A stretch of 64,000 nucleotides of DNA from Bolinopsis microptera (lineage: Eukaryota; Ctenophora; Tentaculata; Lobata; Bolinopsidae), in the NCBI RefSeq assembly GCF_026151205.1, contig NC_087078.1, forward strand, positions 17,873,118 to 17,937,117. The letters run 5' to 3'. The notes under the pieces are model-generated. The model had not been told where the DNA came from. It ran no database searches and saw only the letters and a program-made list of their open reading frames with translations. Each line of letters begins with the position of its first letter. Position 1 is the stretch's first letter. Below, in pieces: positions 1 to 60,623 of this stretch. Made by a program: the position numbers and the translations under genes.

Positions 1-9107
<9,107 letters not shown>

Positions 9108-33866: not shown

Positions 33867-33873
<7 letters not shown>

Positions 33874-36800
33874 GAAAATGGGACAGAGATTGGGACAATA
33901 TGATTTTGCAGTTTTATTCGGGATTTTGACTCCAAGTACCTCAATTTGGTTTCATACCATCATCAATTAGCTGACTAATTGGTTTCTGGGCAAAAAGTTC
34001 ATCCAATCTGTCAAATTTGTGTTCAGAAAATTTCACATTTGAAAATGGGACAGAATTTTGAAAATACAGCTTTTCGTTTTGTTAAGCTTTCTGCTGTGGG
34101 CTTCCTCCGACCGAAATCAAACTTCCAGCACCTCAATCGTGTCATATGGCACCTATAGTTGACTTACTTATTGGTTGCGGGTGAAATAATCAGTAAAAAC
34201 TGTAAAATTTCGGTCCTGGAAATTTCATCTTCAAAAACTGAAAATGGGACAGAGATTGGGACAATATGATTTTGCAGTTTTATTCGGGATTTTGACTCCC
34301 AGTACCTCAATTTGGTTTCATACCATCATCAATTAGCTGACTTATTGGTTTCTGGGCAAAAAGTTCATCCAATCTGTCAAATTTGTGTTCAGAAAATTTC
34401 ACATTTGAAAATGGGACAGAATTTTGAAAATACAGCTTTTCGTTTTGTTAAGCTTTCTGCTGTGGGCTTCCTCCGACCGAAATCAAACTTCCAGCACCTC
34501 AATCGTGTCATATGGCACCTATAGTTGACTTACTAATTGGTTGCGGGTGAAAAAATCAGTAAAAACTGTAAAATTTCGGTCCTGGAAATTTCATCTTCAA
34601 AAACTGAAAATGGGACAGAGATTGGGACAATATGATTTTGCAATTTTATTCGGGATTTTGACTCCCAGTACCTCAATTTGGTTTCATACCATCATCAATT
34701 AGCTGACTAATTGGTTTCTGGGCAAAAAGTTCATCCAATCTGTCAAATTTGTGTTCAGAAAATTTCACATTTGAAAATGGGACAGAATTTTGAAAATACA
34801 GCTTTTCGTTTTGTTAAGCTTTCTGCTGTGGGCTTCCTCCGACCGAAATCAAACTTCCAGCACCTCAATCGTGTCATATGGCACCTATAGTTGACTTACT
34901 AATTGGTTGCGGGTGAAAAAATCAGTAAAAACTGTAAAATTTCGGTCCTGGAAATTTCATCTTCAAAAACTGAAAATGGGACAGAGATTGGGACAATATG
35001 ATTTTGCAGTTTTATTCGGGATTTTGACTCCCAGTACCTCAATTTGGTTTCATACCATCATCAATTAGCTGCTAATTGGTTTCTGGGCAAAAAGTTCATC
35101 CAATCTGTCAAATTTGTGTTCAGAAAATTTCACATTTGAAAATGGGACAGAATTTTGAAAATACAGCTTTTCGTTTTGTTAAGCTTTCTGCTGTGGGCTT
35201 CCTCCGACCGAAATCAAACTTCCAGCACCTCAATCGTGTCATATGGCACCTATAGTTGACTTACTTATTGGTTGCGGGTGAAAAAATCAGTAAAAACTGT
35301 AAAATTTCGGTCCTGGAAATTTCATCTTCAAAAACTGAAAATGGGACAGAGATTGGGACAATATGATTTTGCAGTTTTATTCGGGATTTTGACTCCCAGT
35401 ACCTCAATTTGGTTTCATACCATCATCAATTAGCTGCTAATTGGTTTCTGGGCAAAAAGTTCATCCAATCTGTCAAATTTGTGTTCAGAAAATTTCACAT
35501 TTGAAAATGGGACAGAATTTTGAAAATACAGCTTTTCGTTTTGTTAAGCTTTCTGCTGTGGGCTTCCTCCGACCGAAATCAAACTTCCAGCACCTCAATC
35601 GTGTCATATGGCAACTATAGTTGACTTACTAATCGGTTGCGGGTGAAAAAATCAGTAAAAACTGTAAAATTTCGGTCCTGGAAATTTCATCTTCAAAAAC
35701 TGAAAATGGGACAGAGATTGGGACAATATGATTTTGCAATTTTATTCGGGATTTTGACTCCCAGTACCTCAATTTGGTTTCATACCATCATCAATTAGCT
35801 GCTAATTGGTTTCTGGGCAAAAAGTTCATCCAATCTGTCAAATTTGTGTTCAGAAAATTTCACATTTGAAAATGGGACAGAATTTTGAAAATACAGCTTT
35901 TCGTTTTGTTAAGCTTTCTGCTGTGGGCTTCCTCCGACCGAAATCAAACTTCCAGCACCTCAATCGTGTCATATGGCACCTATAGTTGACTTACTTATTG
36001 GTTGCGGGTGAAAAAATCAGTAAAAACTGTAAAATTTCGGTCCTGGAAATTTCATCTTCAAAAACTGAAAATGGGACAGAGATTGGGACAATATGATTTT
36101 GCAGTTTTATTCGGGATTTTGACTCCCAGTACCTCAATTTGGTTTCATACCATGATCAATTAGCTGCTAATTTGTTTCTGGGCAAAAAGTTCATCCAATC
36201 TGTCAAATTTGTGTTCAGAAAATTTCACATTTGAAAATGGGACAGAATTTTGAAAATACAACTTTTCGTTTTGTTAAGCTTTCTGCTGTGGGCTTCCTCC
36301 GACCGAAATCAAACTTCCAGCACCTCAATCGTGTCATTTGGCAGCTATAGTTGACTTACTAATTGGTTGCGGGTGAAAAAATCAGTAAAAACTGTAAAAT
36401 TTCGGTCCTGGAAATTTCATCTTCAAAAACTGAAAATGGGACAGAGATTGGGACAATATGATTTTGCAATTTTATTCGGGATTTTGACTCCCAGTACCTC
36501 AATTTGGTTTCATACCATCATCAATTAGCTGCTAATTGGTTTCTGGGCAAAAAGTTCATCCAATCTGTCAAATTTGTGTTCAGAAAATTTCACATTTGAA
36601 AATGGGACAGAATTTTGAAAATACAACTTTTCGTTTTGTTAAGCTTTCTGCTGTGGGCTTCCTCCGACCGAAATCAAACTTCCAGCACCTCAATCGTGGC
36701 ATATGGCAACTTACTAACTATAGTTGACTTACTAATCGGTTGCGGGTGAAAAAATCAGTAAAAACTGTAAAATTTCGGTCCTGGAAATTTCATCTTCAAA

Positions 36801-38746
36801 AACTGAAAATGGGACAGAGATTGGGACAATATGATTTTGCAGTTTTATTCGGGATTTTGACTCCCAGTACCTCAATTTGGTTTCATACCATCATCAATTA
36901 GCTGCTAATTGGTTTCTGGGCAAAAAGTTCATCCAATCTGTCAAATTTGTGTTCAGAAAATTTCACATTTGAAAATGGGACAGAATTTTGAAAATACAAC
37001 TTTTCGTTTTGTTAAGCTTTCTGCTGTGGGCTTCCTCCGACCGAAATCAAACTTCCAGCACCTCAATCGTGTCATATGGCACCTATAGTTGACTTACTAA
37101 TTGGTTGCGGGTGAAAAAATCAGTAAAAACTGTAAAATTTCGGTCCTGGAAATTTCATCTTCAAAAACTGAAAATGGGACAGAGATTGGGACAATATGAT
37201 TTTGCAGTTTTATTCGGGATTTTGACTCCCAGTACCTCAATTTGGTTTCATACCATCATCAATTAGCTGCTAATTGGTTTCTGGGCAAAAAGTTCATCCA
37301 ATCTGTCAAATTTGTGTTCAGAAAATTTCACATTTGAAAATGGGACAGAATTTTGAAAATACAACTTTTCGTTTTGTTAAGCTTTCTGCTGTGGGCTTCC
37401 TCCGACCGAAATCAAACTTCCAGCACCTCAATCGTGTCATATGGCACCTATAGTTGACTTACTTATTGGTTGCGGGTGAAATAATCAGTAAAAACTGTAA
37501 AATTTTGGTCCTGGAAATTTCATCTTCAAAAACTGAAAATGGGACAGAGATTGGGACAATATGATTTTGCAATTTTATTCGGGATTTTGACTCCCAGTAC
37601 CTCAATTTGGTTTCATACCATCATCAATTAGCTGCTAATTGGTTTCTGGGCAAAAAGTTCATCCAATCTGTCAAATTTGTGTTCAGAAAATTTCACATTT
37701 GAAAATGGGACAGAATTTTGAAAATACAACTTTTCGTTTTGTTAAGCTTTCTGCTGTGGGCTTCCTCCGACCGAAATCAAACTTCCAGCACCTCAATCGT
37801 GTCATATGGCACCTATAGTTGACTTACTAATTGGTTGCGGGTGAAAAAATCAGTAAAAACTGTAAAATTTCGGTCCTGGAAATTTCATCTTCAAAAACTG
37901 AAAATGGGACAGAGATTGGGACAATATGATTTTGCAGTTTTATTCGGGATTTTGACTCCCAGTACCTCAATTTGGTTTCATACCATGATCAATTAGCTGC
38001 TAATTGGTTTCTGGGCAAAAAGTTCATCCAATCTGTCAAATTTGTGTTCAGAAAATTTCACATTTGAAAATGGGACAGAATTTTGAAAATACAGCTTTTC
38101 GTTTTGTTAAGCTTTCTGCTGTGGGCTTCCTCCGACCGAAATCAAACTTCCAGCACCTCAATCGTGTCATATGGCACCTATAGTTGACTTACTAATTGGT
38201 TGCGGGTGAAAAAATCAGTAAAAACTGTAAAATTTCGGTCCTGGAAATTTCATCTTCAAAAACTGAAAATGGGACAGAGATTGGGACAATATGATTTTGC
38301 AATTTTATTCGGGATTTTGACTCCCAGTACCTCAATTTGGTTTCATACCATCATCAATTAGCTGACTAATTGGTTTCTGGGCAAAAAGTTCATCCAATCT
38401 GTCAAATTTGTGTTCAGAAAATTTCACATTTGAAAATGGGACAGAATTTTGAAAATACAACTTTTCGTTTTGTTAAGCTTTCTGCTGTGGGCTTCCTCCG
38501 ACCGAAATCAAACTTCCAGCACCTCAGTTGTGTCAAATGCCATCTATTGTTCACTGCTTAATTGGTCACTGGAAAAACATTTAGTCAAAACTGTGAAATT
38601 TTGGTCAAGGTACAATTGAGGTACTTTCTAGAGACTTTATTACAGAACGGAAAGTGGTATTATCCCATTTCTGTTTCATTTTCAAACATGATATTTGACA
38701 GAATTTTAGGCCAACGTATTCAGGGTTTTCGTTTTTAGTGCCCGAA
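33867..38746. repeat. 366-bp dimeric satellite, right part
   Basis: About thirteen further units of the same 366-bp satellite, with high identity and subfamily markers (AGCTGACTAATTGG or AGCTGCTAATTGG; AATACAACTTTT or AATACAGCTTTT). Units become clearly diverged from about 38520 to 38746, as expected at an array edge. A fragment of the first half-unit also occurs in each 829-bp repeat to the right, and the satellite recurs in reverse inside the hAT-like element at 59416-60623. Confidence 0.95.
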
Positions 38747-39073
38747 GTCAGGTACAAATTTAATAAAATTACTGAATACAGTTAGATAATTCATAATGCA
38801 TTTTCCCAGTAAATAAACTGATTGGACTCAGTAATTGAATTTTCAAACCTTAAATATAATAAAATATCACAAAATATTCAAAGGTCACGGGTCCTCAGCA
38901 ACAACTTAGTTATCATCAAGTTTGGTTCGATCAACAGTTGACAGTGTCAGCTCTACAATATAATAGTCCCTGTAGGCTGTATCCGCCAATTATTTGAGTA
39001 AAGAGAGTGTTTTCTAGAATAGTAAATCACTCTGTGTAGTGTAATGTGAGGTACCACGTGGTGCCTCTGTGTC

Positions 39074-39209
39074 TCATTCAGAGTCTGAGCTTGATTCGTA
39101 ATCTTTGCTGGCTTGTATGAGCAAGAGTTTCCTTTTCAAACCATAGAACATTTGTGGTTGAGTGGTCACATCAAATGCAGCAAATTTCCAGCCTAGATCT
39201 CTCAAACAC
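39074..39209 (-). pseudogene. Extra copy 3 of the cereblon-B last exon
   Basis: Same acceptor (TTTGCAG) and 44-codon exon, CLRDLGWKFAAFDVTTQPQM onward to ESSSDSE and stop, as the native exon at 41561-41696. It is intact, so it could act as an alternative terminal exon, but no partner exons lie between the copies. Confidence 0.85.
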
Positions 39210-39902
39210 CTGCAAAATAAAACAATCGTAAGTTAAGGGCTAGAATTCGCTGTATTTTGCCGTTAAAACACAACTTGTACTGTTTAACTTCATGATTGGG
39301 CCGTAATTCAAAAGCAAATTGGCAAGAAGTGGTGCTCACGGTCTCACTTAACGTCACTTAAGCGACAGACAGCCTGCAGGCATATGATCCGAATACGAAA
39401 TATCCTTGTGTTCGGCATTTAATAGCCCTAATTGGTTACTTCGTATACTAAACCCTAGATTTCGCGACAATTGACCCCAGTGTAATAACATAGGGGTCAA
39501 TTGCAGTTTTATTCGGGATTTTGACTCCCAGTACCTCAATTTGGTTTCATACCATCATCAATTAGCTGCTAACTAGTCAGGTACAAATTTAATAAAATTA
39601 CTGAATACAGTTAGATAATTCATAATGCATTTTCCCAGTAAATAAACTGATTGGACTCAGTAATTGAATTTTCAAACCTTAAATATAATAAAATATCACA
39701 AAATATTCAAAGGTCACGGGTCCTCAGCAACAACTTAGTTATCATCAAGTTTGGTTCGATCAACAGTTGACAGTGTCAGCTCTACAATATAATAGTCCCT
39801 GTAGGCTGTATCCGCCAAATATTTGAGTAAAGAGAGTGTTTTCTAGAATAGTAAATCACTCTGTGTAGTGTAATGTGAGGTACCACGTGGTGCCTCTGTG
39901 TC

Positions 39903-40038
39903 TCATTCAGAGTCTGAGCTTGATTCGTAATCTTTGCTGGCTTGTATGAGCAAGAGTTTCCTTTTCAAACCATAGAACATTTGTGGTTGAGTGGTCACAT
40001 CAAATGCAGCAAATTTCCAGCCTAGATCTCTCAAACAC
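39903..40038 (-). pseudogene. Extra copy 2 of the cereblon-B last exon
   Basis: Intact duplicate of the terminal exon with acceptor and stop, one 829-bp unit further from the gene body than the copy at 40732-40867. Confidence 0.85.
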
Positions 40039-40731
40039 CTGCAAAATAAAACAATCGTAAGTTAAGGGCTAGAATTCGCTGTATTTTGCCGTTAAAACAC
40101 AACTTGTACTGTTTAACTTCATGATTGGGCCGTAATTCAAAAGCAAATTGGCAAGAAGTGGTGCTCACGGTCTCACTTAACGTCACTTAAGCGACAGACA
40201 GCCTGCAGGCATATGATCCGAATACGAAATATCCTTGTGTTCGGCATTTAATAGCCCTAATTGGTTACTTCGTATACTAAACCCTAGATTTCGCGACAAT
40301 TGACCCCAGTGTAATAACATAGGGGTCAATTGCAGTTTTATTCGGGATTTTGACTCCCAGTACCTCAATTTGGTTTCATACCATCATCAATTAGCTGCTA
40401 ACTAGTCAGGTACAAATTTAATAAAATTACTGAATACAGTTAGATAATTCATAATGCATTTTCCCAGTAAATAAACTGATCGGACTCAGTAATTGAATTT
40501 TCAAACCTTAAATATAATAAAATATCACAAAATATTCAAAGGTCACGGGTCCTCAGCAACAACTTAGTTATCATCAAGTTTGGTTCGATCAACAGTTGAC
40601 AGTGTCAGCTCTACAATATAATAGTCCCTGTAGGCTGTATCCGCCAATTATTTGAGTAAAGAGAGTGTTTTCTAGAATAGTAAATCACTCTGTGTAGTGT
40701 AATGTGAGGTACCACGTGGTGCCTCTGTGTC

Positions 40732-40867
40732 TCATTCAGAGTCTGAGCTTGATTCGTAATCTTTGCTGGCTTGTATGAGCAAGAGTTTCCTTTTCAAACC
40801 ATAGAACATTTGTGGTTGAGTGGTCACATCAAATGCAGCAAATTTCCAGCCTAGATCTCTCAAACAC
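40732..40867 (-). pseudogene. Extra copy 1 of the cereblon-B last exon
   Basis: Intact duplicate of the terminal exon, the nearest one downstream of the native last exon. The reading frame and TTTGCAG acceptor are unchanged. Confidence 0.85.
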
Positions 40868-41560
40868 CTGCAAAATAAAACAATCGTAAGTTAAGGGCTA
40901 GAATTCGCTGTATTTTGCCGTTAAAACACAACTTGTACTGTTTAACTTCATGATTGGGCCGTAATTCAAAAGCAAATTGGCAAGAAGTGGTGCTCACGGT
41001 CTCACTTAACGTCACTTAAGCGACAGACAGCCTGCAGGCATATGATCCGAATACGAAATATCCTTGTGTTCGGCATTTAATAGCCCTAATTGGTTACTTC
41101 GTATACTAAACCCTAGATTTCGCGACAATTGACCCCAGTGTAATAACATAGGGGTCAATTGCAGTTTTATTCGGGATTTTGACTCCCAGTACCTCAATTT
41201 GGTTTCATACCATCATCAATTAGCTGCTAACTAGTCAGGTACAAATTTAATAAAATTACTGAATACAGTTAGATAATTCATAATGCATTTTCCCAGTAAA
41301 TAAACTGATTGGACTCAGTAATTGAATTTTCAAACCTTAAATATAATAAAATATCACAAAATATTCAAAGGTCACGGGTCCTCAGCAACAACTTAGTTAT
41401 CATCAAGTTTGGTTCGATCAACAGTTGACAGTGTCAGCTCTACAATATAATAGTCCCTGTAGGCTGTATCCGCCAAATATTTGAGTAAAGAGAGTGTTTT
41501 CTAGAATAGTAAATCACTCTGTGTAGTGTAATGTGAGGTACCACGTGGTGCCTCTGTGTC

Positions 41561-44500
41561 TCATTCAGAGTCTGAGCTTGATTCGTAATCTTTGCTGGCT
41601 TGTATGAGCAAGAGTTTCCTTTTCAAACCATAGAACATTTGTGGTTGAGTGGTCACATCAAATGCAGCAAATTTCCAGCCTAGATCTCTCAAACACCTGC
41701 AAAATAAAACAATTGTAGCGATATTAAAATTGAGTTAAATTGTTATGCAAGATAAAATATCCGATCACATCAAAGGTAAGTTTACCCATGTTACTCAGGT
41801 TACCAGGTTACTCAGGTTACCCAGGTTACTCAGGTTATCCAGGTTACCAGGTTACCCAGGTTACCAGGATACCCCGGGTTACCCAGGTTACCAGGTTACC
41901 AGCTTATCCAGGTTACCCAAGTTACCCAGGTTACCAAGGTTATCAAGGTTACCTACGTTTTACAGCCGAGCAGTGTTCTACCATATCCAGTAAGGTCACT
42001 CTTCCTGGTAGCGGTACCGTACCAGTACACATGATCAGTGTTAACGTTAGTGGTCAGTACTGTCTCGTCGAACATTCCTGGAGGTAGTGGGTGTGAAATC
42101 GGGAGCTATCTAAAAGTTGAAATATACATATATATATTATATATATGTATTTGAGTTGTTCTATCCTCCTGATATTTATAAATTAATATTGTTAATTTGC
42201 TAATAATTGAAGGACTGTAAATAAAAAATCTAAATTTATATGCGTTAATTATACTGCAATGGTTAAGATGTGACACACTGTAGCAAGAATTTCGCCGCGG
42301 TTAAACCACGCACGATCAATTTTCCCTACCAATTACCATGTACTTGTACCATTAATATTATGGCATTAATTCTTTTGAGTGAAAAGTGTGACTGGAAAAA
42401 AGTGCACCATATTTACATACTATGTTTTTTATGAATGAGTGGGATTCGTGCATGGTAAAAATTGACGATTTATTTGACCAATGCAGCGCCGCGCATCAAC
42501 AATAAATGAATCCAGAAAATTGCGGAAAATAACTTTGCGAAGGAGGAATTTCACTGTAATTAATTAACACATGGCTAGCGTCGCGCGCAGCATAACAGAC
42601 GCTTCCTATACACTTAATTATAGGGGAGTGGTCTATATTGCGAAGGAGCAGACTTTTGTCGTCACCGCAGGTCCATCGGGCTACCTCATATATCTAAACC
42701 CGATTACTTATTCCCTACGATCTTTTTGCCTTCGGCAAGAGTAGGGAAAAAAATCTAAATTTATATGCGTTAATTATACTGCAATGGTTAAGATGTGACA
42801 CACTGTAACAGAAATATTTAAAGGAAACTCAAGTTAACAACTAATCTCCTAAAAGTAACATAATAACTAACTAATCTTAACATAACTTAATAACTAACTA
42901 ATCTCAACATAACTTAATTAAATGGTTGTTATCAGAACGACGTACCCTCCGGTTTGAGATGATAAAAAGGACCTTCAGACTTCATGGACATAAGATCAGA
43001 GCAGCTGACAACTGGATGGTTAGGTCCACACTCGAGACAACAGTAATCAAAGTGGTTGAGAAGTCGCAGGTAGTTCAGTTGAGATCGGAGTCTCACGATC
43101 AGGTTATCCTCTCTCAGCATCTTGTTTCTGTGTAGATGGTAATTGTTAGTTTCGCGGGAATTTATGATTTATACCAGTGCTACATTCTCATTTACTGACT
43201 ATCATAACTCTATTTAAGGGCCTAACAGCCTATGATAAAGATAAGAGATAACATCTTCTCTTGAATGGGTTGACTATAGACTCTTGAAGTCCTATTACCG
43301 GTGAATGTTCTTCAATTCAACATTCGTCATTATAATTAACAATATCTAACCTTTGTTTGAACTTGAAGGGCATAGTACTGATGATCCAATAAGAGAACAT
43401 GATGGGCTCAGTCGGGGCAGAGTCCGCATTAATACCAGGGCAACTCGTTGTTATCTCGTTCTTAATCAGTTTCTCCAGAGTGAAGACGTCCCTGAGTCGG
43501 TGCTGCCACACTGGGAGGGGTCCTCGCAGGAACGTATCCTTTACTTTGCCAGCTGTGGGACGTGGTGTAATAAACCGGACATTTGTTTGTGTCTTGTGAG
43601 AGATCAAGTTCTAAGAGATTTCTGAGAGTTTGTATTTAATAAATAAATGCTCTTAATAAAGATAAGTTTAAAAGTGTTTAGGGTTTATGTTTAATCGGAA
43701 TAAAATAACGGAGAGATAACCCTCCTCGATTTCTCAAACTGCGCAGTCTATTAGTCTATATATTAGTCTATATATTAGTCTATACCAGGATCAAGAAGGC
43801 GAGGTTGTTTCTGGTCCTCGTGTATCTCAACTGTAGCTCTCATATGTCTTGAAGTTAACTCTTCTGATATCACCTCATATCTCTGTCTACCTATAGATAT
43901 ATATTATAGTATAGTATATATAAATATATATTAAATTTTTAAATGTTTCATGATCGATAAAAATTATTTTATAAAGGAGCAACATGTCATAGCGCTACAA
44001 TTCATTATTCTATTTGGCACTGATGATTGGTATTGTTTTTTATACATATCATGAAACGGATCGTTTGCCCGCCAATTTGATTTGTTTCAATTGTTCGAAT
44101 TATATAAATATATATATATACTAGATTTATTATAAGTGTATCTGTGTGAAAAAACAAAATGGAAGTTTCCAAATTCTCTATTATTCAGGCCAAGAGAGGC
44201 TATAATTATCATTTGATGTTTGATAAGGCACTAAAGATATATATAATCCATGTTTACGTGTAAAGTGTAAACAGTGCGTGAAGATAATTAGATAATTAAT
44301 TATATATTAATGAGGTATTATAGTAGTACCCATGCACTTTAGTTCCAGTTTGCTCTGATTCTCTTCTGTTACCTCAAGTATCTGAACTGTAACACCGCAG
44401 TCGCACCAGGTATCCTCTAATCTTTCACTGCACAAAATTGGTTAGTTAGCTTGGAGTTAATTATTAAGTGAATGATCAGGATCAAGTCTGCTGATTAGTA

Positions 44501-45478
44501 CACGGCCGACTCTGACAGAAAGTATCGGTCCGGGAAAGCTCGCTTGATTATGAGCGGACTGTCAACCAATGTTACCTTAAACAGACTTTAAGAAGAAGAA
44601 TTAAGCTTGCGACGATATTCCGCAGCCTATTCTAAAACAGCATTATTTTTTCATTTTTATGACTCACTCTTCGTTAGGCACGTGCACGGCCCCAAACACA
44701 TTAGGATCGTCACTATCAAGTAGGTTTTTGAGCAGAGCGAACTGTAGTCCTGTGTGTTGGTCGTCTCTAAACCTCAGCGGGAACATTAATCCTGCGATAA
44801 ATCTCGTGTAAGTTTAGAAGGCGCTGGTTTGTTTGAAGAATGTTTCGCTTGATGCGAATTATTGTTTTAGCGAAGAGATCAGCTTTTACTTCGAGTATTA
44901 TCACCCCGATTCAAATTTCCCCTCAAAATTGAATTGTTCAGCAAGAATTAATTGGAGTTGCTATTAAAATTCTAATTAATGATATAATTGGAAGTGTGTT
45001 ACCTGGAATAACGATGATGTTAGTAGGAATGAGCAGTAGACTCACTCTATCTCCTTCATTATAATTAGTGTATACGCTGTTCGGAGTCGGAATATCTGAG
45101 GAGAACAACCATGAACACATCTTGTTATTTCTTTAAATACCATTTTACTGTTATTTATTTTACCTAGTCCATTGCTCAACTGTCTCACGGAAAGACAATC
45201 GTGCAAGAAGCTTTAAAAGAGCGCCGCGCAAAGGGATCAGTGGCGTACCAGGTACTTACTTACTGGGCATAATAATCTTCTAGAATAAACAACAATAATA
45301 CAATCACAACCAAATCCTAACACTTACTTGGGATCTGTGAGTACCGTCGAGCTAGTCCCATCTGCATCAAATCGGCTCCGCCCCTTCCGCGGGGCCTGTT
45401 GTAATTCTGCACCAGTTCCCCAAACGCGTCTTCTTCTCCTTCTAGTTCATGTTCAGGTCTTGACTCGTCCTCAGACAT
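41561..45478 (-). CDS. CRBN-like: Cereblon paralogue B (CULT pocket altered)
   Basis: Divergent homologue of cereblon, the substrate receptor of the CUL4-DDB1 ubiquitin ligase. Exons: 45328-45478 (start MSEDESRPEH), 45003-45095 (LLLIPTNIIVIPG), 44668-44791, 44330-44427, 43786-43890 (GRQRYEVISEE), 43351-43610 (VWQHRLRDVFTLEKLIKNE; PTEPIMFSYWIISTMPFKF), 42946-43127 (FDYCCLECG), 41957-42077, 41561-41696; about 415 residues. Exon 6 is open in two frames; a 22-nt GT...AG stretch (near 43526-43547) would reconcile them but is too short for an ordinary intron. The LON-like half and both zinc pairs (CLEC, CKTC) are kept, but the pocket segment SWFPGYAW is replaced by SDLTGYGR, so two of three cage tryptophans are gone; LGWKF keeps the third. 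It sits 1.3 kb downstream of paralogue A. Confidence 0.88.
41790..41955. repeat. GTTACC minisatellite in cereblon-B last intron
   Basis: About twenty imperfect copies of an 8-bp unit (CAGGTTAC on +) directly abut the donor of the exon ending at 41957. On the gene strand the repeat reads GTAACCTGG..., so each unit contains a GTAAC that resembles a 5' splice site. Plus-strand ORFs reading PGYQGYPGY-like repeats are by-products. Confidence 0.9.
42224..42807. repeat. 59-bp direct repeat bounding a 466-bp insert
   Basis: AAAAATCTAAATTTATATGC and the next 39 bases occur at 42224-42282 and 42749-42807 with identical sequence. The stretch between has no ORF; TTTTCCCTAC near its left end and GTAGGGAAAA at its right end form a short inverted repeat. 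Located in the intron between cereblon-B exons 7 and 8. It could be a local duplication with an insertion. Nearby at 42120-42150 is an AT palindrome. Confidence 0.75.
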
Positions 45479-46817
45479 GGTTTCCGGGTGGAGAGATGTT
45501 CAAAACTGGGGGATATAATCTTAGCGATGAAAAGATTTTGTAGATTTTTGTTTGTCGAAGATGGTTTTCTACATTCTAGGCGAAATGAAAAATACTTGAT
45601 GGAATTCATTTAAAATGCGGAATTTGCGGGTTAAGCGTTGAAATAAAACATTTGGTTAAAGGCCCCATTGCCTCCAGCTAAAAATAGCGTCCAACTAAAA
45701 TCTCTACCGTAAAAATATATCATCATACGGATACTTTCGTCTTATCTGTGATCATTTCCCTCAGTTTGATACTTTTTATCACGATTTGAGCGTACAATGG
45801 TTGCTGCTGCGTTTCAATTTTATTGAAATTTTGGTAATCTAGTCAGCCCCTGTCTGTGCAGGGAATAATCTTGCCGACACATAAACATATAGTTTTATCT
45901 GGATGCTATGGGGTCTTTAACAAAAAACACGCATTCATAATTAAACAGTTAACTTTGAACGATCACGAGAAAACTTTACAATAATGTTTACAATTCGTAC
46001 ATCTTCAAATTATCTAAACCTATGTTAGATGAAGTGTTAAAACAATCGAACGTTTTAATTTCCTTAGAAACGAAAAGCACCCATATAGAAGAAAAACAAA
46101 TATCTCGACAGTATGCACGATCTCACAAACGATAATGAAGGAGCTTTAATTGATTGCAAGTAACATCAATGAGATAAAGAACCTTTAATTTGCATTACCA
46201 AAATGCTGACTAACTTGATTATCGTGATAAAATATCACCCAATAAGAGAGCAATATCATGAGACATGCTGTACAAAAAGTTATGATATTTAATGATATTG
46301 ATCGAAGAAGAGTTTGATGTTGCGATTTATAAATTTGTATAAGATTATTAGGATTAATTGAGTACGTGACTCGATCAAATTACCTTCTTGTTATTTTAAA
46401 ATTGATCAAAGTCCAAGATATCGAAGGTATAAGCAACATATCTGCGCATATAACTTTAGTTGACAAAATAAAAGTGTTTAAAATATTAAATAAAATAAAT
46501 AACCTGCCATTTGCAAATCGTATAAAATAAAACTGAAATGCTGTTAATTTAGACTTGAATCTCGATCCCTGAACAAGTTTAAATGTAAATTGAATGTAAA
46601 GTTTGATTCTTATTGATTCATCGTCCTGCTGAGAATTGTTTCTGCATGTTTTTTGTTGGTAAAACTTAGAGACAAACCAAATGTCTGTTCTCACTTCTCG
46701 GTGATAAAATCTCCCCTGATTGGTAAACCCAGATAATAATTATTTGATATATTCGTCTCACCAGGAGAGAGTAATATTCAGATGATGATGAAAAGTATTT
46801 GAGAGTTATCAGATGAT
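45479..46817. other. Spacer between the cereblon paralogues
   Basis: AT-rich DNA without recognisable exons on either strand. It should contain the promoter of paralogue B and the 3' UTR end of paralogue A. No clear TATA box or poly(A) cluster could be assigned. Confidence 0.5.
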
Positions 46818-49800
46818 TTATATGTATCTGGGGTAGATTCCGTCCGCTTCATAAATTATTCGATCTCTGCCGAAATTAATGTCAGTAATATCTTCTTCTG
46901 GTTCAGGTTCGACTTCGCTGCAATATTGACGGAGTTTTTATATTTTTACTAGCAAAAAAATCCTGCTTTTTTAGTAGACCTTACAACTTTTTACTGCATT
47001 TAAAATTTATAAATATCTGTCAATTATGAATGTATTAGTTTAAATATTTAATTTTAAACATAATTTGTATTTTAATTATTTAATATGTAATTTTCTTAAG
47101 GCCAACAATAAATCTAACCTATGTCTGAGCACCCTGACAACTTTCCGTTGAATTCCGTAAAAGATTCGTGGCTGGGTCTCCTCAACAACTGCAGTGAACT
47201 TCCAACCCAGAAAACTATCACACCTGCAGACAAATTTATGTTTTTTTGAGTGGATCGATCATATAAATGATGTTTTGGGACAAAGTGAGAGTCTCCACTC
47301 AGTTTTTCAAACAAATAGAATATAATAGTTGTCGACGTTTCGGCCCACGCCTTTGTCATGGACGAGACGTTACAATTACGTTACATAGCTCAATAAAAAC
47401 GTTGAACAACTGAGTGGAGACTCTCGTACTTTGTTCCAAAACATCAATTATATGGTTCTATGTAGATGTGTTTGTGGACACCTGATCTGTACCACTAGAC
47501 TAACCTTAGACACTTGAGGTAACTCCAGGCGTACCAAGGTAACCAGGTAACCAGGTAACCAGGTAACCAGGTAACCAGGTAACCAGGTAACCAGGTAACC
47601 AGGTAACCGGGTAACCAATCCAGGTAACCAGGTAACCAAACTTACCTAAGACACTTGAGGTAACTCCAGGCGTACCCAGGTAACCAGGTAACCAGGTAAC
47701 CAGGTAACCAGGTAACCAGGTAACCAGACTTACCTAAGACACTTGAGGTAACTCCAGGCGTATCCAGGAAACCATGAGTCTTGTGTGGTGGGTACCCCGT
47801 CTGCTATGGCGTGTTGTACACTGTATGCTGTGATCAGCTCAAAAGCGAAACCTGGCAAGAAACTTCGCTGTAAAGAGGGACAAATCGGAAATATTTCTCG
47901 TGCATGAATGTGGTAATTATGCTTCTCAAAATCAACGTTTAATTTTTGCCATCAGTTGAGAAATCCAACAGTAAAACACGAAACCGATTAATCACCGATA
48001 AATGTCGACTAAAGTTAAACTGATCTAGAACACGATTTTTTGCATAAAAACATAATCTCCAATCATATCTGGATACCAGATGGTAGAAATAAAGACCGAC
48101 TATTCCACTAACCTTGGGGATTAACAAAGAAGGAACCGTCTGCTGACATGGAGACAAGCCGGCTAGAATTAATAATATCTTTACCACAAAGCTGGCAACA
48201 ATAGTCGAACTGGTTTAGTTCCTTGATGTGGTCCAGCTGGGATTTCAGACGCACTACCAGGTTGTTCTCTCGTAACATCTCCGCTCTATTGGGAGAAAAC
48301 TAATTTAAATCAATATATAATTAGGGGCTAGGAGCCCTCAACGCACTTAGCAGGACGATATCCGTCACCCTCCACTGGGTACCGGCGCATAGTGGAATAA
48401 AAGGCAATGATCTCGCAGATTCTCTGGCAAACAAAGGATCCGACACTCCTCCCATTGGACCGCCTCCTTTTGCCCCTTACACTCACTCCTCTCTCTCTAA
48501 TATTTTAGACAGTTACTTTTCTCGACTTCACTATAATCGTTTATTACTCTTCAGATCCTCCACTGATTTTCACCAATCCAACATTATTAGTTTCTTTGAC
48601 AGACACCTTGACGTTAAACGACATAATAGAGACAATACCAGAATTCTTACCCATCTATTCACAGGATGCAGTTATCTCAGATATTTCCAAAACAAGATTG
48701 GCAACGAACCCAACAGCATATGCAAAAAGTGTGATGAAGACAAGGAAACTACAGCACACTACCTCACAAGCTGTCCAGCATTCTCCATACACAGGAAATA
48801 CTACCTTGGTAACTATACCATCAGAGAGGACACCTTCCATCAAACCTTCTCTATCAGTAACATAGTGGGGTTCGCTAGAGCTACCAAGTATCTAGATTTC
48901 TATGAACCCCCTTAGTCTCTTTCTCTTAGCCTTAGCTGACGTAATTGTCCCTCTACCACAATCACCCTCCCCTCCCCAGATCGTGTTCAGACTTGCAGCA
49001 GGTCCTGCTACCCAGCCAGTTCTAAGGGCTCAATAGTCCACTGGACGGCTCTCGTAGCTTGACTTAATGCTTGTCTCTCTCTCTCCCCCTCACCCCTCTT
49101 TTTCATCATTGCTGATTGTGGAAGGGACAACCACGTTACCTACTCAGTTTCCTTTTATTTCTCATTGACATGATTCAGTGACTTCCCCAGCCCTCTATAT
49201 CTTTAACATGATACCTCCCAGGACCATAGTATTCCATACCAGACATTTCTTTAACTCCTCGTTACAGCAAGACTAATACAACACGGAGAAGAAAAGAAAT
49301 AGAGACAAGAATACGACAGCCATGGACTCTTACAAAAGACTAACAGAAGGAACATCCCGGTTTGATCCTTCTGAACTATGCATCTTATATCGGTATAGTA
49401 TTGGTATCTATTTTTTACCTATTGTTATTTTTTATCTTTGCTAGTTAATCATGTTTTTGGGTACCGGGCCATCCTGGTTACCCTGCTATGGGCTGTTCCC
49501 CTGGCTTATGCAGGTCTCGTTTACCCATATATATATAACTTATATCATTGCTCATCATGGAAGAAAACGCGAAACACTCGTAATCTCGTATATATAAACT
49601 TTAAGTTAATGAAGTATTTACTAATACAGCTATTAATTGATCAACAGACCTCTGGTTGAATTTGAAGGGCATTGCACTGATGAGCCAGTAGGAAAACATG
49701 TCTGGCTGCACCGGGGCAACGTTTACTTTGATCAAGGGACTGTAGCGTGCAATCTGAACAAAATATCCACTGTTAGCACATATCAATCATGTAACGTTAA

Positions 49801-52800
49801 TATTTTCAATATACAACTCATTTTAGACATTTTATATAATCTATGAGAATGCTTTAACTTTTCTGATAGTATAGTGGTTAAAAGTGAGAAAAATAGTCAT
49901 TCAATACTGAATACAGTTTTATTAGTATTTTATAGAGCTAAGGGAGGAATTTATTATTGATAATTGTTTTCATCATGCACATCGTCATATACATCGATGA
50001 TCGATCATATGATCCGGCCAGCCATGCACACATGACGTACGTACGTTACAAACGAACGCACGTTATGCGCTGTCATTATCAAAATATAACAGTCGCGCGC
50101 TCCGTCAATTGCACAAAACTGCATATTTTGTCCCAAACTCAGAGGATGTTTTCTAAGGAGTTGTAACGCTGCCCCCATCCTTAAATCTGCATTCATATAT
50201 AATATACAACATGAAACAATTAGTTCATGCTCTTATCCAAAACACTACCACAGCTTCACACCCTAATTTAATTAATGCACGATGAGATGTGAGTTTGTTC
50301 AGAGTATTGAAGTAATAAAAGTATAGTGGATTAAGTTTCTCAGAGTATTGATTGACAAAGGATACCGCTGTAATATAATGTAAGGTGGTTTCAGGTGGTG
50401 TAATAATTGTTAGTGGTTACTGGAGCGAGTGGTGCAATATAGACCGTAAAATAAACCATCAAGAAGCCATTTTAAGATTAATTTCATCAAACGTAACACA
50501 TTACAAAATCACACAGGCAAACTTAATTAGATTGGCTCAGCCATATTGCGATGGGGGCAGACCTTTACAAATGGGGGCCAATTTGTAACAATTTAATCTG
50601 TAATCGAAAACATCGCCTCCCCAAACTCACCTCTTCCTTTATAACGCCCACAATGGTGTACACATCGTGACTCTTATACAGCCATGTGGGATGCGAGCTT
50701 AACTTGAAGGAATCACGTAACTTCCCCAGTGGATCGTATAATCTGTCCGGAATGTGGTCCGCTAGGATCTTGACTTTGGCGTGGAGGATGGGCGTCCTCC
50801 GTTGTGTGGAAATCGTCTTGAACCTCTGTCTACCTGTTGTTTTGAGTATAGATTAATGTTTTATGCATGTCTATTTTACCCAACTTATCAGTATCATAAA
50901 TAATGAAATTCCAGCTTTAGAATGTAAATATAGGTGAATGTAGAGTGTAAATGTAGGTATCCAAATTCTAACTACATATCGCTGGACTATTGCTTATTAC
51001 TGGACAGTGGACAGTGCTACATAATAACCAAAAACGAAAAACATGCAAATTCACATATCTTAGGGATGTAAAAAATCGCCGTTAATATTAGTTCAAGGAA
51101 ATTCGGGATTAACTGGATTACCTTTGCACTTGAGCACAATTTCATTGGGTGTCTCATCTGAAACCTCCACAATTTGAACTGTTACACCGATTTGTGACCA
51201 ACTGCGATCGAGCACCAAAGTCTCCCTAGATAATTAAATAATATTAATGATATTGGTATATTAACATATGTAAGTAACGTTGAAATTCATCTTTTATTGT
51301 CGAATAAAGTACATTGGTTCTTAAATTTTTATGAGATCCCAGTTTATATATTTAAAAAAAACCTTCTGCTCTGAGGAGGAGAGAAAGTTTTTGTGGAGAG
51401 CCGCTCAGACATGGGCACCGTATTGTGTAAATTATTTAGGTATATTTTATGCAATATCTTTGTCGCATACGAGCGGGGTAGTAAATATTGTGTTTCGTTT
51501 CGTTTCGTTTCGTTTCGTACATTATACGCATCAGCTTATCAAGTTAGAATTTAAGGTATTATTAATAAGTGCAAGCTGGCTGTTGACTTAACAGATTCTA
51601 TGCTAACAACAGAACAGCAATGAGATCTATATGTTTTTATAGAGGAAGTAAAAAGAACAAATAGTTATTTAACTGTTATTTAATTAGATTTATTTAATTA
51701 AATAGTTATTTAACTGACCGTTCTGCGGGAAGGTAAACAGCGCCAAATGTCTTCTGATTGGTGTCAAGAAGAGCTCGGACCATGGCAAACTGCAGGGTGC
51801 TCTGTCTTATTCTGAGAGGAAGACTTTGTCCTGACAAAGAGTACTTTAGTTAGTTTTGTTATAACTTAAATAACTTAATTAATTAATCTAGCATACCAAA
51901 TTCACTTTTTCTAGCGATAGAAATAAAATAAAACTGAATCAAAAGAACCCCGATTTTACACATTTATCTAGTAATCATGACGAATCAGCCTGAAAACCTG
52001 CTAACCTGGTATTACAATAACGTCAAGTGGTATTATGTACAAGTTCACGTGATGACCTTCCAACCAATAGTTGTAACCTTCAACTCGTGTCAAAGCCATA
52101 TCTGAAGTTAGCCTAGTTATGACTAAGTTGTTAGGTAACCTTTATAATAATTCGTAATATCAAGTTTTTCAGTTTTGCGAGATGTAGCAAGGTCCGTACA
52201 TGAATTGATAGTTCCTAAATTGAAGGAAAGTAATGATAGTTACATCACGCACTACAATCAGAAACTATGTAAATACATGCAAACGTATCCATGTAAACGT
52301 ATGTAAACGTATGTAAATAACAATGTATCTGACCAAGGTAGGAATGCTGGGAAGGTATAGCAATATCGTAATCCACACGATCCAGCTCCTGGGCCTGTTC
52401 AGCATTTGCGATCCTCTGCTGGGTGCGTTCTGCTGCAGCATCTACCTGTCTCTCGATCCATGCTTCCTCAGCAGCTTCAGCTTCTGCCATTCGTTCAATC
52501 TCACGTTCTTGTTCTGCATACTCTTCTGCTACGCGTTCAATCTCACGTTCTTGTTCTGCCTGCTCTGCTATTATGTCTAGTGAGTCGTTATCTTCGTCCA
52601 TCTCCATCTGTTCCTTTTCTTCTAAGTTCTCTGCTGCATCTTCTGAAATTGTTTGTATCAAACAATTTGGAGTAGATCTATCAAAAATGAAATCATTAAT
52701 ATATTGTCATAAAATATCCTGATAAAAATAAATAAGAAATAAAATGAATAGTGAATTTACCCATTTTTATTTTTATTTATTGAACGACTGGTTAGATCGG

Positions 52801-52925
52801 ATTCAAAAATCATGATAATGTAAAAAATTAATTTTCAAACCGTAATCAGATTGCTCCCCGTTGTCATTATCCTGCTGAGCACTACTTTCACCACCTTCAC
52901 TGTTCGATCTTACTTCCTCTTCCAT
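46818..52925 (-). CDS. CRBN: Cereblon paralogue A (complete CULT domain)
   Basis: Cereblon homologue, CUL4-DDB1 E3 ligase substrate receptor. Eleven exons splice in frame: 52841-52925, 52334-52642, 52006-52101, 51719-51830, 51122-51225, 50631-50833, 49650-49753, 48113-48285, 47734-47851, 47119-47223, 46818-46917; 502 residues (human CRBN is 442). Exon 2 adds a Glu/Ala-rich predicted helix with repeated EQEREIER before IPSQHSYLG, which matches the TSHTYLG motif. The LON-like domain has VIVIPG, GQSLPLRIRQ and GRQRFK; the segment PDMFSYWLISAMPFKF follows. The CULT domain has zinc pairs CQLC and CLRC and the pocket DSWFPGYAWSYLKC plus LGWKFTAV, so all three cage tryptophans are present. The C-terminus is acidic, ending GIYPRYI. 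Introns contain a LINE fragment, a minisatellite and an inverted-repeat element. Confidence 0.94.
47261..47453. mobile_element. 193-bp inverted-repeat element in cereblon-A intron
   Basis: Arms of about 50 bp (ATGTTTTGGGACAAAGT, then GAGAGTCTCCACTCAGTT) face each other at 47261-47311 and 47400-47453 with a few mismatches. The core, on -, reads GGGCCGAAACGTCGACAA, a phrase common in Penelope-like element termini. It lies between cereblon-A exons 9 and 10. No ORF. Confidence 0.65.
47512..47770. repeat. Minisatellite copying a cereblon splice donor
   Basis: Runs of the 8-bp unit GGTAACCA alternate with three copies of a 35-bp piece, AGACACTTGAGGTAACTCCA and onward, at about 47508, 47644 and 47735. 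The last of these is the real end of cereblon-A exon 9 with its donor. Thus the coding end and 5' splice site of exon 9 have been duplicated twice into the following intron. Confidence 0.88.
48328..49450 (+). mobile_element. 5'-truncated LINE with RNase H end
   Basis: An open frame from about 48331 to 48915 reads VTLHWVPAHSGIKGNDLADS (RNase H C-terminal block with His and Asp), then a linker and CKKCDEDKETTAHYLTSC, the Cys-His knuckle found after RNase H in I/R1/Jockey-group LINEs, then a stop after LDFYEPP. A 3' UTR of some 500 bp seems to follow; its exact end is unclear. The fragment is open throughout, so it is fairly young. It lies in the intron between cereblon-A exons 7 and 8, opposite to the gene. 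Confidence 0.82.
51492..51518. repeat. GTTTC microsatellite
   Basis: Five consecutive 5-bp TTTCG units inside the intron between cereblon-A exons 4 and 5. Confidence 0.85.
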
Positions 52926-53330
52926 TTCCTTCAAGATATTTATTGTGTATCCAATAAATTGTCTAATAAATTCTCTTTCAAAAGCTTTGATTGTGCACTG
53001 ATGAAATGAAGATTGAGAGCAAAAGCCATGCTCTTAAAATGAGACTCCACGAATTATTTAGTTGCTTAAAATGTTTAGGACAAGAGTAAGCAGTGATTGA
53101 CAATCTATACTGATATTAATAGTAATAATATTTCAATAAAATTACAAACTTTATTCCGACTGTACCTTAAAATGTAAACATTATAATCATATGTAGCAAA
53201 CAATAACATTGATTACCAATGTAAATACAGTTATATAGATCACAGTTCGGCTCATTCATTCTTTCATTTTATGGATGATACTTTCCAAGTCAGAGGGTAT
53301 GCTTTAATGTATGTAGTTGAAACACAGATT

Positions 53331-55693
53331 TTACTCATATTCGTTCATCGATCGTCTTAAATCTATTTCCCACCGCCTTGATTTTTCCTGATCCTTTTTT
53401 CTCTTTCGCTTACTTTCTGTCGTGAGTTTGATCTTTCGTTTGTGTAACAGGTTGTCTTTCAAACTGTTTACATCATGGGGTTCAAAGTGGGATACTTTTG
53501 GTTTGTTCTTCTCAGGAATTCCAAGTCCTCTTCTGTCAGTTTTTAGTTGTGTTTTTATGAGGTATTTTCGTCCAGCTTCTGATGGCCCTGTAAATATCAT
53601 TAAAATGTTTTAAATGGAAAATAGTTTTTTTGCCTGGATAAACAATGACGATTACGTGCAATTTATACAAACAATTTTCTGTTATGCCCAATTCCTATGA
53701 AAATACAGCTTTCTATAAACGTGATGATTTTGAAGTTCAATACATCATCTGACCGTGACCATGTATCTGTATTATATCTATAACTATTATCTATATCTAC
53801 GGGTATATGCCTCACAGAATGGCTAGCCTCACAGAATGGCCAAATTTGTAAATGTTTTTGTAACTAATTTTTTATATAAGACTGGTAGGTTTTGTGGATA
53901 CCATATGAAACAAAAGTCTTCTGGCAACACTTCCTGTGGTGAAATCATTAACTAGGACCACATTTTCTGGCATAAATATGACTGTTTAAATGTAGAAATT
54001 TTTCAAATTTTGGAACTAAGTTTACATTTTGGTGAGAACTTCTGGCACCAGTAGGACAGAAGATGTTTAAAGAATAGTATTCATCAAACAAAACGAACAT
54101 TGTTAAATATAGGAAGAAAAAAATGCTAAAATGGCTAAACGCCTCACAAAATGGCCAAAATATGCCTCACAAAATGGCCAAAATTTAAAGCTCCTTTTAT
54201 TCAATGAAACAATAAGTCTAAAGTATTCACAAGCTATTTATCATACAATAACACCACAGATGGAGTGTTTTTACAGCCGAATGAAGGTTATAAATCATGA
54301 AATCAGGGAATATGAACAACGCCACACAAAATGGCCATTTTTGGTGTAGGAAATTATGCCCTTTTTATTCAGTTCTAAGAAATTTCACCTATATGGGGGT
54401 GTTAACAAGGCATATTTATACCAGCAGCATGCCTGAAACAAGAGCCAAAGGTTTTAGAAAAATAAAATTTTCTCGTTTTCATTTTTTTGGGGCCATTTTG
54501 TGAGGCATTTTTTCTTTTTTGTGAAATAATTTTTCACAGCTCAGTTTTTTCGTGAGTCTAAGGTTATTACCCCATTCCTTAATAGGTTTTCTAACAACGT
54601 GTGGTGATAGAAATTTAAAAAGTATCTCCATCAAAAAATTATAGAAATCCAGATTTGGCCATTCTGTGAGGCATGTTTTTTTGGAGGAAGATTTTCCGGC
54701 CAATTTTTCTCAAAGAAAAAATGGTTATGAGATTAAATCAACCCCCGGGAAGAAAAATATGAGTGTCAACTTAACTTCTTATGAGATAAAAACTGGAATA
54801 AAGTGTGTTTTGTGATTTTGAGAGACCTTCCTTTTTTTTGGCCATTCTGTGAGGCATATACCCGTACCTATTATATGTAGGTTCATAGGTTTTAACTTCT
54901 AAACAAGCTTACCTAAACCCTTGTTTTCGGACCACCCAAACTTGGACATCATTTTATAGCCAGCATTATTTGGATCCAAGTGGGGATTAATCTCAGGAAC
55001 ATCACGATTTTCTGCATGAAGGTGAGAAATCGATGATTCATGATTTGGATCACAGTGAAGCAGATTGCACTGCTTGCAATATTCTTCAGATTTCTGTTTA
55101 GCGCTTTCCAGCTTAACAGCAGTTGTTCTTAATTTCATGCTGTACTTCGACAAAATTCGATTGAGATTTTCATCTTTGACATTCCATACAACATCACTGA
55201 ATGTGTTCCCAAAGTTGTCTTTTCCGTCCATTAGCGATGGGAAAAAATTCAATAAAAATTTAAAAGATTCATAGCTCTTATGAACGGCAGCTGTCATGGC
55301 TATATTGCAGCCTGATTCATCACACAGACTCTTCACAGCAGTCTGTAATGAGCCAAGATGATCATTTCTGAGTTTTTCAGGGAAATACAGAGTAAACCAA
55401 TCTTTTACTGACACAATATCATCATTACAAACTTTGTTATACAAATTCTTGTAAGAACTTGGGGTAATTTCTTTACGTCTTTTATTTTTCTGTAATCTGG
55501 CAGGTGTATGTGATGATCCAGAAGAAGATTCACTGATGACTAAACTATAAAATTCAGCTGAACTGCTGCCAGGATATGCTTCAGGATACCTAGCACGATA
55601 ACTGTCAGAGTTTGAAGGATTGCAAGAATTATCTACAATAGAATCTTGGATATCTTTACTTCTAACGAACGGGATAACAGTAAAGGGTAGCAT
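53331..55693 (-). CDS. GPANK1: G-patch and ankyrin-repeat protein
   Basis: Two exons, 54913-55693 and 53331-53587, join in phase to give 345 residues (human GPANK1 has 356). Residues about 75-185 hold degenerate ankyrin repeats (GCNIAMTAAVHKSYESFKFL). A zinc-like EEYCKQCNLLHCDPNHESS matches the QYCENCDTHFQDSNH segment of the human protein. The G-patch is GYKMMSKFGWSENKGLG, split exactly by the intron, continuing PSEAGRKYLIKTQLKTDRRG. The C-terminus SRRWEIDLRRSMNEYE matches the RAWERDLRTYMNLEF end of GPANK1. The G-patch suggests partnership with a DEAH helicase in RNA processing. ATG at 55693 is the only one near the expected N-terminus. The intron carries a 1.07-kb transposon. Cereblon A starts 0.4 kb downstream on the same strand. 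Confidence 0.93.
53800..54864. mobile_element. 1.07-kb TIR element with TA target duplication
   Basis: Perfect 24-bp terminal inverted repeats beginning CGGGTATATGCCTCACAGAA, flanked by TA on both sides (53798-53799 and 54865-54866). The motif CCTCACARAATGGCC or a close variant occurs five times in the left part (about 53810, 53827, 54140, 54164, 54321) and three times inverted in the right part (54490, 54656, 54841). Such arrays of subterminal sites are typical of transposase-binding sites. Only short ORFs are present, so it is non-autonomous. TA duplication is compatible with Tc1/mariner-like transposases. Confidence 0.82.
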
Positions 55694-55955
55694 AGCAGAT
55701 GCCTTCTGGAGTGCTACAATTGCTGAAGTAATTTTTATTTTAAAACAATATCATTGCTTGATGGGTATGATGCCACTAATGTCAAGATGGACAAAGATTG
55801 ATCAGTCCGATCGTTGATTCGTTTTCAGCTCCCGCTTGTGACAAGGTTGGTGGTTGTTCTCTTTTCTTTAATGAGCTAGTACAGACATCAGCACTGTTTG
55901 GTTTTAGATTAGCTCAAATGTAATAATCCAAAATAAAAATTGTATTAGATGATAG

Positions 55956-59415: not shown

Positions 59416-60623
59416 CTTAGTTGTAGTGAACGCTGAATTTAGTCGTACTGAACGTACGTTCCAATCATTTTGTAGTGAACGTTTGTGAACGTTAGTGAAC
59501 GTTAGTCAATATTTTGATAATTTTTCCGATAGTTTTTAACTTTAAAATATGAAATTTTCTGAACACAAATTTGACAGATTAGATGACATTTTTGCCCACA
59601 AACCAATTAGTCAGTTAATTGATGATGGTATGAAACCAAATTGGGGTACTGGAAGTCAAAATCCCGAATAAAATTGTAAAATCATATATTCCAAATCTCT
59701 GTCCCATTTTCAGTTTTTGAAAATGAAATTTCCAGGACCGAAATTATACAGTTTTTACTGAATTTCTCACCTGCAACCAATTAATAAGTCAACTATAGAT
59801 GGCATATGACACGATTGAGGTGCTGGAAGTTTGATATCGGTCGGAGGAAGCCCACAGCAGAAAGCTTAAGAAAACGAAAAGTTGTATTTTCAAAAGTCTG
59901 TCCCATTTTCGAATATGAAATTTTCTGAACACAAATTTGACAGATTAGATGACATTTTTGCCCACAAACCAATTAGTCAGTTAATTGATGATGGTATGAA
60001 ACCAAATTGGGGTACTGGAAGTCAAAATCCCGAATAAAATTGTAAAATCATATATTCCAAATCTCTGTCCCATTTTCAGTTTTTGAAAATGAAATTTCCA
60101 GGACCGAAATTATACAGTTTTTACTGAATTTATCACCTGCAACCAATTAATAAGTCAACTATAGATGGCATATGACACGATTGAGGTGCTGGAAGTTTGA
60201 TATCGGTCGGAGGAAGCCCACAGCAGAAAGCTTAAGAAAACGAAAAGTTGTATTTTCAAAAGTCTGTCCCATTTTCAAATATGAAATTTCTGAACACAAA
60301 TTTGACAGATTAGATGACATTTTTGCCCACAAACCAATTAGTCAGTTAATTTTCGCTTTTTAAGCTTTCTGCCGCAGTGGGCTTCCTCCGACCGATAACA
60401 AACTTCCAACACCTCAATTGTGTCATATGCCATCTATGACTATAGTTGACTTACTAATTGGTTGCGGGTGTGAAATTCAGTAAAAACTGTAAAATTTCGG
60501 TCCTGGAAATGTTAATTTCATAATAGCAATTAGCGTTCCTTATGTTCCGAACGTTAAAATCTTTTAGCGAACGCGTTCACAAACTATTTTTAGTGAACGT
60601 TCCGTACGTTCACTACAACTAAG
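59416..60623. mobile_element. hAT-like element filled with the satellite repeat
   Basis: 17-bp terminal inverted repeats CTTAGTTGTAGTGAACG, flanked by an exact 8-bp duplication TTTTTTAC (59408-59415 and 60624-60631), as in hAT transposons. Subterminal regions carry several TGAACGTT-type motifs in both orientations. The interior (about 59546-60515) is almost three tandem units of the 366-bp satellite found at 25.9-38.7 kb, in opposite orientation and diverged by perhaps 10%. No transposase is present. Confidence 0.88.

Follow-up and report, generated by a model that had tools for sequence, protein, structure and literature searches.

A tandem cereblon paralogue in Bolinopsis microptera that appears to lack the ligand-gated switch and keeps the cereblon scaffold

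Cereblon genes are described as single-copy per genome (Lupas et al., PMC4287342). A 64,000-nucleotide stretch of contig NC_087078.1 of the ctenophore Bolinopsis microptera (assembly GCF_026151205.1, positions 17,873,118 to 17,937,117), hereafter the window, carries two cereblon-type genes, copy A and copy B, which lie head-to-tail on the minus strand with approximately 1.3 kb between them. In copy B, the tri-tryptophan cage of the CULT domain, the pocket with which cereblon binds thalidomide-type drugs and their natural counterparts, appears to be reduced to a single tryptophan. The locus therefore raises the question of what such a copy is, i.e., a decaying duplicate, a receptor with a new pocket or a cereblon that works without one. 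From the sequence evidence set out below, we think it fairly probable that copy B is a tandem paralogue of cereblon with intact coding capacity that has kept the scaffold but not the ligand-gated switch, and that it likely represents a ligand-independent pseudo-receptor.

In order to model the two genes, exon boundaries were picked by homology, open reading frame (ORF) continuity and GT-AG sites, and all introns in both models are GT...AG. A solved-structure entry served to verify the human CRBN reference over residues 36-188 and 236-435. The spliced models yielded 11 exons and 502 amino acids for copy A (52925-46818) and 9 exons and 403 amino acids for copy B (45478-41561), each with a stop-free frame (Table 1). 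The outer limits given by the initial annotation, 41561 and 52925, correspond to the end of the copy B stop codon and to the copy A ATG, respectively. The weakest parts of the models are the donor of copy A exon 1 and the junction between its exons 2 and 3.

Both predicted proteins are recognizable as cereblon. The LON domain exceeded its Pfam cut-off of 28.7 bits in copy A (64.0 bits) and copy B (64.3 bits), in agreement with the LON-like motifs first annotated in both, and Yippee-Mis18 (cut-off 26.6 bits) passed in copy A at 34.4 bits, with copy B falling below at 18.4 bits. The top solved-structure match was cereblon for each copy (E=2.6e-43 for A, E=1.5e-25 for B), and the CULT domain of copy B was matched by seven short CRBN chains of 108-114 residues at E=1.1e-9 to 3.5e-9. 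The two CULT zinc pairs, which had also been noted in both genes, are present as CxxC at human positions 323/326 and 391/394. An NCBIfam search of the two CULT domains gave nothing useful. With cereblon, the CUL4-DDB1 substrate receptor, both copies thus have in common the LON-N, LON-C, CULT order and the two CxxC pairs; copy B differs from it by the absence of W380, W386, N351 and the belt motif FDxxLPxxHxYLG.

For seven of the eight introns of copy B, copy A has an intron of matching phase; the alignment column is identical for six of these and shifted by one for the seventh. The exon order is shared, as had been claimed, without being identical, one intron being private to copy B and three to copy A. 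Over human residues 80-426, identity amounts to 44.9% between the copies (141/314), 32.6% between copy A and human (100/307) and 29.2% between copy B and human (90/308). The simplest reading, with human as the only other animal sequence compared, is that the pair arose by a duplication within this lineage. A processed retrocopy was ruled out because the two copies have introns in common, and allelic copies or an assembly duplication because their proteins are only 44.9% identical.

The cage segments read DSWFPGYAWSYLKCLRC...GWKF in copy A and KSDLTGYGRTLLGCKTC...GWKF in copy B. In two alignments, one of which included six bacterial domains, human positions 380, 386 and 400 were W/W/W in copy A and D/R/W in copy B. 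As initially annotated, copy A keeps all three cage tryptophans (W380, W386, W400), and the SDLTGYGR segment of copy B, with W380D and W386R, leaves only the GWKF tryptophan (W400). Copy B retains Y384 and F402 besides W400, as well as the LON domain and both zinc pairs. The combination D380, R386 and W400 marks copy B as a cereblon by descent, not as a thalidomide-binding cereblon. When 54 bacterial CULT domains were included in a multiple alignment, the tryptophan of VYWYG, which lies upstream in exon 8 of copy B, instead fell on W380, in which case the cage would be altered and not lost. This placement requires a 9-residue insertion together with a compensating upstream loss, and was judged less parsimonious because the copy B segment is just one residue longer than its human counterpart. 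Moreover, the two other alignments give D at 380, and W386 is still replaced by Arg and N351 by Lys, so we regard a pocket rebuilt around VYWYG as improbable.

The gene models derive from sequence alone, and a different exon might in principle supply copy B with a normal WFPGYAW segment, as the initial annotation had recognized. Six WFPGYAW/GWKF-type patterns were searched for in all six frames of the window, and the only FPGY-type motifs found lie in copy A exon 9 and in the minisatellite that follows it; no spare cage exon is therefore seen for copy B. Furthermore, copy B exon 8 sits in the right place, restores the CxxC and has the same phases as copy A exon 9 (1 in, 2 out) at a corresponding size (121 bp vs 118 bp). 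Its peptide outscores most shuffles, with its score reached by 31 of 2000 when compared with human and by 69 of 2000 when compared with copy A. An error of the gene model is accordingly very unlikely.

The cage residues and the sensor-loop Asn that copy B has lost are nearly invariant in the bacterial CULT matches examined. A profile search of 395 genomes of one bacterial phylum (E<=1e-6, with at most 12 candidates scored per genome) identified 40 matches in 39 genomes. W380, F381 and W386 were present in all 40. For N351, for W400 and for every one of the zinc cysteines (four in number) the count was 39, the remaining match being one cut fragment each time; N351 occurred with all three tryptophans in 38. 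Other positions varied, i.e., P382 (17/40), Y384 (27/40) and A385 (11/40), and the exact WFPGYAW was found in five matches. The search profile, with nine rows of which eight carry the cage, leans to the cage without demanding the motif. Human cereblon and copy A agree with the invariant bacterial columns, and among the 14 near-invariant columns that they have in common copy B keeps 10, losing N351, W380, F381 and W386. A pattern-based scan of bacterial genomes had yielded 54 loci, all with W380 and W386. This count was set aside and is not relied on because WFPGYAW was one of the two search patterns (53/54 carry it); three of the 40 profile matches repeat loci of that scan. Relatives were also sought in viral contigs, where 48 pattern matches obtained with the alignment of copies A and B as query, and 23 obtained with that of the copy A and human CULT domains, included none that was confirmed. 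Bacterial and secreted animal CULT proteins belong to the same domain family as the cereblon CULT domain and, unlike copies A and B, are described as having the CULT domain only (PMC4287342). The comparison made here covers the bacterial proteins, which, in contrast to copy B, keep W380 and W386 in 40/40.

The losses in copy B extend beyond the cage. An N-terminal belt contributes to holding cereblon in its closed form. The belt motif FDxxLPxxHxYLG is described as running beside the thalidomide site (Lupas et al., PMC4287342). It reads YDIAIPSQHSYLD in copy A, with F to Y, L to I and final G to D changes, the last residue being at the weak-donor junction, and the aligned residues of copy B are MQMGLARRYSQIP, with nothing belt-like there. 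A belt pattern search of 41000-54500 on the minus strand detected only copy A exon 2 and a chance-like match at 47278, in copy A intron 9, and none within the span of copy B. A network that a 2025 preprint names in closed cereblon comprises Y59 and L60 of the belt, Q100 and K156 of the LON domain, V350 and N351 of the sensor loop, and H378 and W380 (PMC12767645). At these eight positions copy A has Y59, L60, R100, a gap, V350, N351, D378 and W380, and copy B has Q, I, R, a gap, L, K, K and D, of which L60I and V350L are conservative changes. Closed human cereblon contains a Q100-H378 hydrogen bond (PMC12767645), in place of which copy A, judged from the alignment, could form an R100-D378 salt bridge; in copy B, R100 and K378 would repel each other. 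In the bacterial protein the NPxG-hairpin region hydrogen-bonds the first cage tryptophan (PMC4449219), and copy B has altered both the NPxG Asn (to Lys) and this tryptophan (to Asp).

Cage, sensor loop and belt are thus missing together in copy B and largely present together in copy A (except for H378D and Q100R), which would support the view that they form one switch. This evidence is compatible with the initial proposal that copy B has a new or no ligand. Besides the cage residues named in that proposal, copy B has also lost the sensor-loop Asn and the belt motif at the N-terminus, so that the loss goes further than first claimed. Of four residue sets, one hand-chosen set showed losses concentrated in the pocket at p=0.041.

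We next consider whether copy B is a constrained gene. No stop codon occurs in its 403 codons. GC content is 46.2% in its exons, 33.9% in its introns and 48.0% at third codon positions (GC3), the respective values for copy A being 46.7, 35.5 and 47.3%. Over 326 codons the two copies differ at 43, 32 and 66% of codon positions 1, 2 and 3. The excess of position 3 over position 2 also holds within exon 8 (p=0.0096) and within exons 8-9 taken together (p=0.0004). When human serves as the reference, copy B alone is changed at 37 of the 336 residues of exons 2-9 and copy A alone at 28 (p=0.32). Exon 1, the exon that holds the belt, has 8 B-only and 2 A-only changes, and all exons together give 45 vs 30 (p=0.11), so that copy B is not significantly faster than copy A. 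Open frame, GC content, codon-position pattern and a pace like that of copy A support long-term coding constraint on copy B. At fourfold sites, 38 of the 59 comparable ones differ, which places silent sites near saturation. The LWL85 method gave 0.51 nonsynonymous (dN) and 2.14 synonymous (dS) substitutions per site, and NG86 yielded no dS. Given this saturation, we claim no formal dN/dS, and positive selection is beyond the reach of these two sequences.

A recent pseudogene, or a gene that is losing constraint, would be in keeping with the fact that the last exon of copy B is caught in an 829-bp tandem array. All nine exons are nevertheless open, the pace of copy B is not significantly above that of copy A, and GC3 has not decayed toward intron GC. 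When neutral substitution was simulated (1000 runs), the frame stayed open in 11% of runs at 0.05 changes per site and in just 1.2% at 0.1. Decay of copy B is hence a reading to which we attach little probability. In the array itself (38953-41730, minus strand), the last exon and its acceptor occur in four identical copies at 829-bp spacing, with starts at 39209, 40038, 40867 and 41696, and copy B might use any of these terminal exons. By eye, the 829-bp unit also contains a piece of the 365-bp satellite described below.

The main rival to a dismantled switch is a neofunctionalised pocket, in which K351, E353, K378, D380 and R386, together with the kept W400 and F402, would form a new polar or charged ligand or degron site. 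In exon 8 the copies differ at the second position of 20 of 39 codons, vs 85 of 287 elsewhere (p=0.0099), the highest such divergence among the regions compared, yet it is also an exon in which position 3 exceeds position 2. N351K and W380D co-occur, and a K351-D380 salt bridge could replace the bond between hairpin and tryptophan described for the bacterial protein (PMC4449219). The faster change may, however, come from a relaxation of selection on a pocket that is no longer used. Saturation at silent sites weakens the case as well, and the B-side excess in exon 8 is not significant (6 vs 2 changes, p=0.29). We therefore hold a new pocket to be possible and rather doubtful. The switch may also have been rewired, with charged pairs (K351-D380, with R386, and K378 facing R100) replacing the aromatic cage and latch. 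Rewired in this way, copy B would read a different charged degron or stay permanently open, and its ligase function would be uncoupled from imide sensing. We take this reading as a whole to be conceivable and treat it as tentative.

In the reading that we favour, a dismantled switch on a kept scaffold, copy B would bind neither thalidomide-type drugs nor C-terminal cyclic imides, and such ligands would not trigger its closing from the open form. Its LON surface and zinc fold would serve to hold partners, and copy B would work as a CUL4-DDB1 adaptor that does not switch or, alternatively, in the ubiquitin-independent chaperone role that has been described for cereblon (PMC8623651). Copy A would perform canonical imide recognition beside it.

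Several observations weigh against this reading. Copy A is itself not fully canonical (Q100R, H378D and a gap at K156), and upstream of the LON domain copy B is aligned chiefly by means of the common intron position. The evidence that losses cluster in the pocket is weak, since three other residue sets, built on a list of what we take to be pocket residues, gave p=0.23, 0.09 and 0.27. With the cage in eight of the nine profile rows, cage-less bacterial domains could score under the cut-off. In the tests of constraint the lineages of copies A and B are combined, and GT-AG was itself a criterion for the splice sites, which leaves room for a very recent loss of function. The initial annotation also held that copy B is still able to join DDB1, a claim for which we find no support. 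The conserved WPxWxYxxYD motif of the DDB1-binding region is HPTWLYKSHD in copy A and LPVWQHRLRD in copy B, where P, W and D are kept and both Tyr are lost (Y245H, Y248R), and approximately 31 human residues of the connector are absent from both copies. With this motif eroded, even the adaptor function of copy B is uncertain. Finally, immunomodulatory imide drugs (IMiDs) inhibit the chaperone role of cereblon (PMC8623651), and this role may therefore involve the pocket too.

Among the closest counterparts of copy B are a laboratory mutant and a protein from another lineage. The Y384A/W386A CRBN mutant, used as a control that is reported to be unable to bind thalidomide or its derivatives (PMC9217950), is broken at the W386 cage position, as is copy B. 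Copy B differs from this mutant in its natural origin, in retaining Y384 and in the additional loss of W380, N351 and the belt. A CULT protein of Trypanosoma is the nearest natural case found of an altered tri-Trp cage; it keeps two Trp, with the third replaced by Phe and thus still aromatic (PMC11032742), whereas copy B has Asp and Arg. Among the matches listed from the open-licence literature, in their titles and abstract openings, no cereblon paralogue with a lost cage was found.

Table 1. Exons of the two cereblon-type gene models (positions within the window)
Feature	Position	Strand	Content
Copy A exon 1	52841..52925	-	start codon 52925; acidic N-terminus; weak donor GTTTGA, boundary among the least certain
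Copy A exon 2	52334..52642	-	belt motif YDIAIPSQHSYL at its end
Copy A exon 3	52006..52101	-	LON-N start
Copy A exon 4	51719..51830	-	LON-N
Copy A exon 5	51122..51225	-	LON-N
Copy A exon 6	50631..50833	-	LON-N end, short connector, HPTWLYKSHD motif
Copy A exon 7	49650..49753	-	LON-C
Copy A exon 8	48113..48285	-	LON-C end, first zinc pair CQLC, VNPQG
Copy A exon 9	47734..47851	-	cage exon, SWFPGYAW = W380 and W386
Copy A exon 10	47119..47223	-	second zinc pair completed; GWKF = W400
Copy A exon 11	46818..46917	-	C-terminal tail, stop
Copy B exon 1	45328..45478	-	start codon 45478; without belt motif
Copy B exon 2	45003..45095	-	LON-N start
Copy B exon 3	44668..44791	-	LON-N
Copy B exon 4	44330..44427	-	LON-N
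Copy B exon 5	43786..43890	-	LON-N end; next intron without counterpart in copy A
Copy B exon 6	43351..43552	-	connector, LPVWQHRLRD, LON-C
Copy B exon 7	42946..43127	-	LON-C end, first zinc pair CLEC, LKPEG = N351K
Copy B exon 8	41957..42077	-	former cage exon, SDLTGYGR = W380D, W386R
Copy B exon 9	41561..41696	-	second zinc pair completed; GWKF = W400; stop

The introns of the two genes carry repeats of their own. In the intron that follows the copy A cage exon, an 88-bp repeat set within an 8-bp minisatellite apparently duplicates the 3' end of that exon together with its splice donor (47537-47774). The matching intron of copy B contains a 9-bp minisatellite (41782-41953) whose unit runs the other way. 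The intron that separates exons 7 and 8 of copy A holds, on the opposite strand, a fragment of an element of the long interspersed nuclear element (LINE) type (48325-48912; RNase H 27.3 bits, cut-off 25.8). Elsewhere in the window, another LINE-type element at 27349-33355 comprises an ORF that resembles GDSL weakly (score under the Pfam cut-off), an endonuclease ORF and a reverse transcriptase ORF of 1101 codons. Arrays of the approximately 365-bp satellite occupy 25857-27040, 33867-38606 and 59541-60351 (3.2, 13.0 and 2.2 copies, respectively). A tandem repeat with 3528-bp spacing covers at least 1-7356; the three 300-bp stretches of it that were compared are identical, which points to a recent duplication or an assembly artefact. 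Two similar cysteine-rich ORFs at 11246-12394 and 20205-21368 on the minus strand (NCD3G/ephrin-receptor-like, Pfam below cut-off) are apparent duplicates. The gene that adjoins copy A, at 54899-55750, has a G-patch domain (28.4 bits, cut-off 22) and presumably resembles GPANK1. Scans of the window for tRNAs and, at the gathering threshold, for Rfam families gave no hits.

The pocket-dependent and pocket-independent work of cereblon is hard to tell apart, and the thalidomide-deaf forms encountered in the literature consulted are laboratory mutants and a disease-linked truncation. Copy B would be a natural paralogue without the cage, the sensor-loop Asn or the belt that has evolved at a pace like that of copy A. 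If this is true, a pocket-free cereblon would have a selected job of its own.

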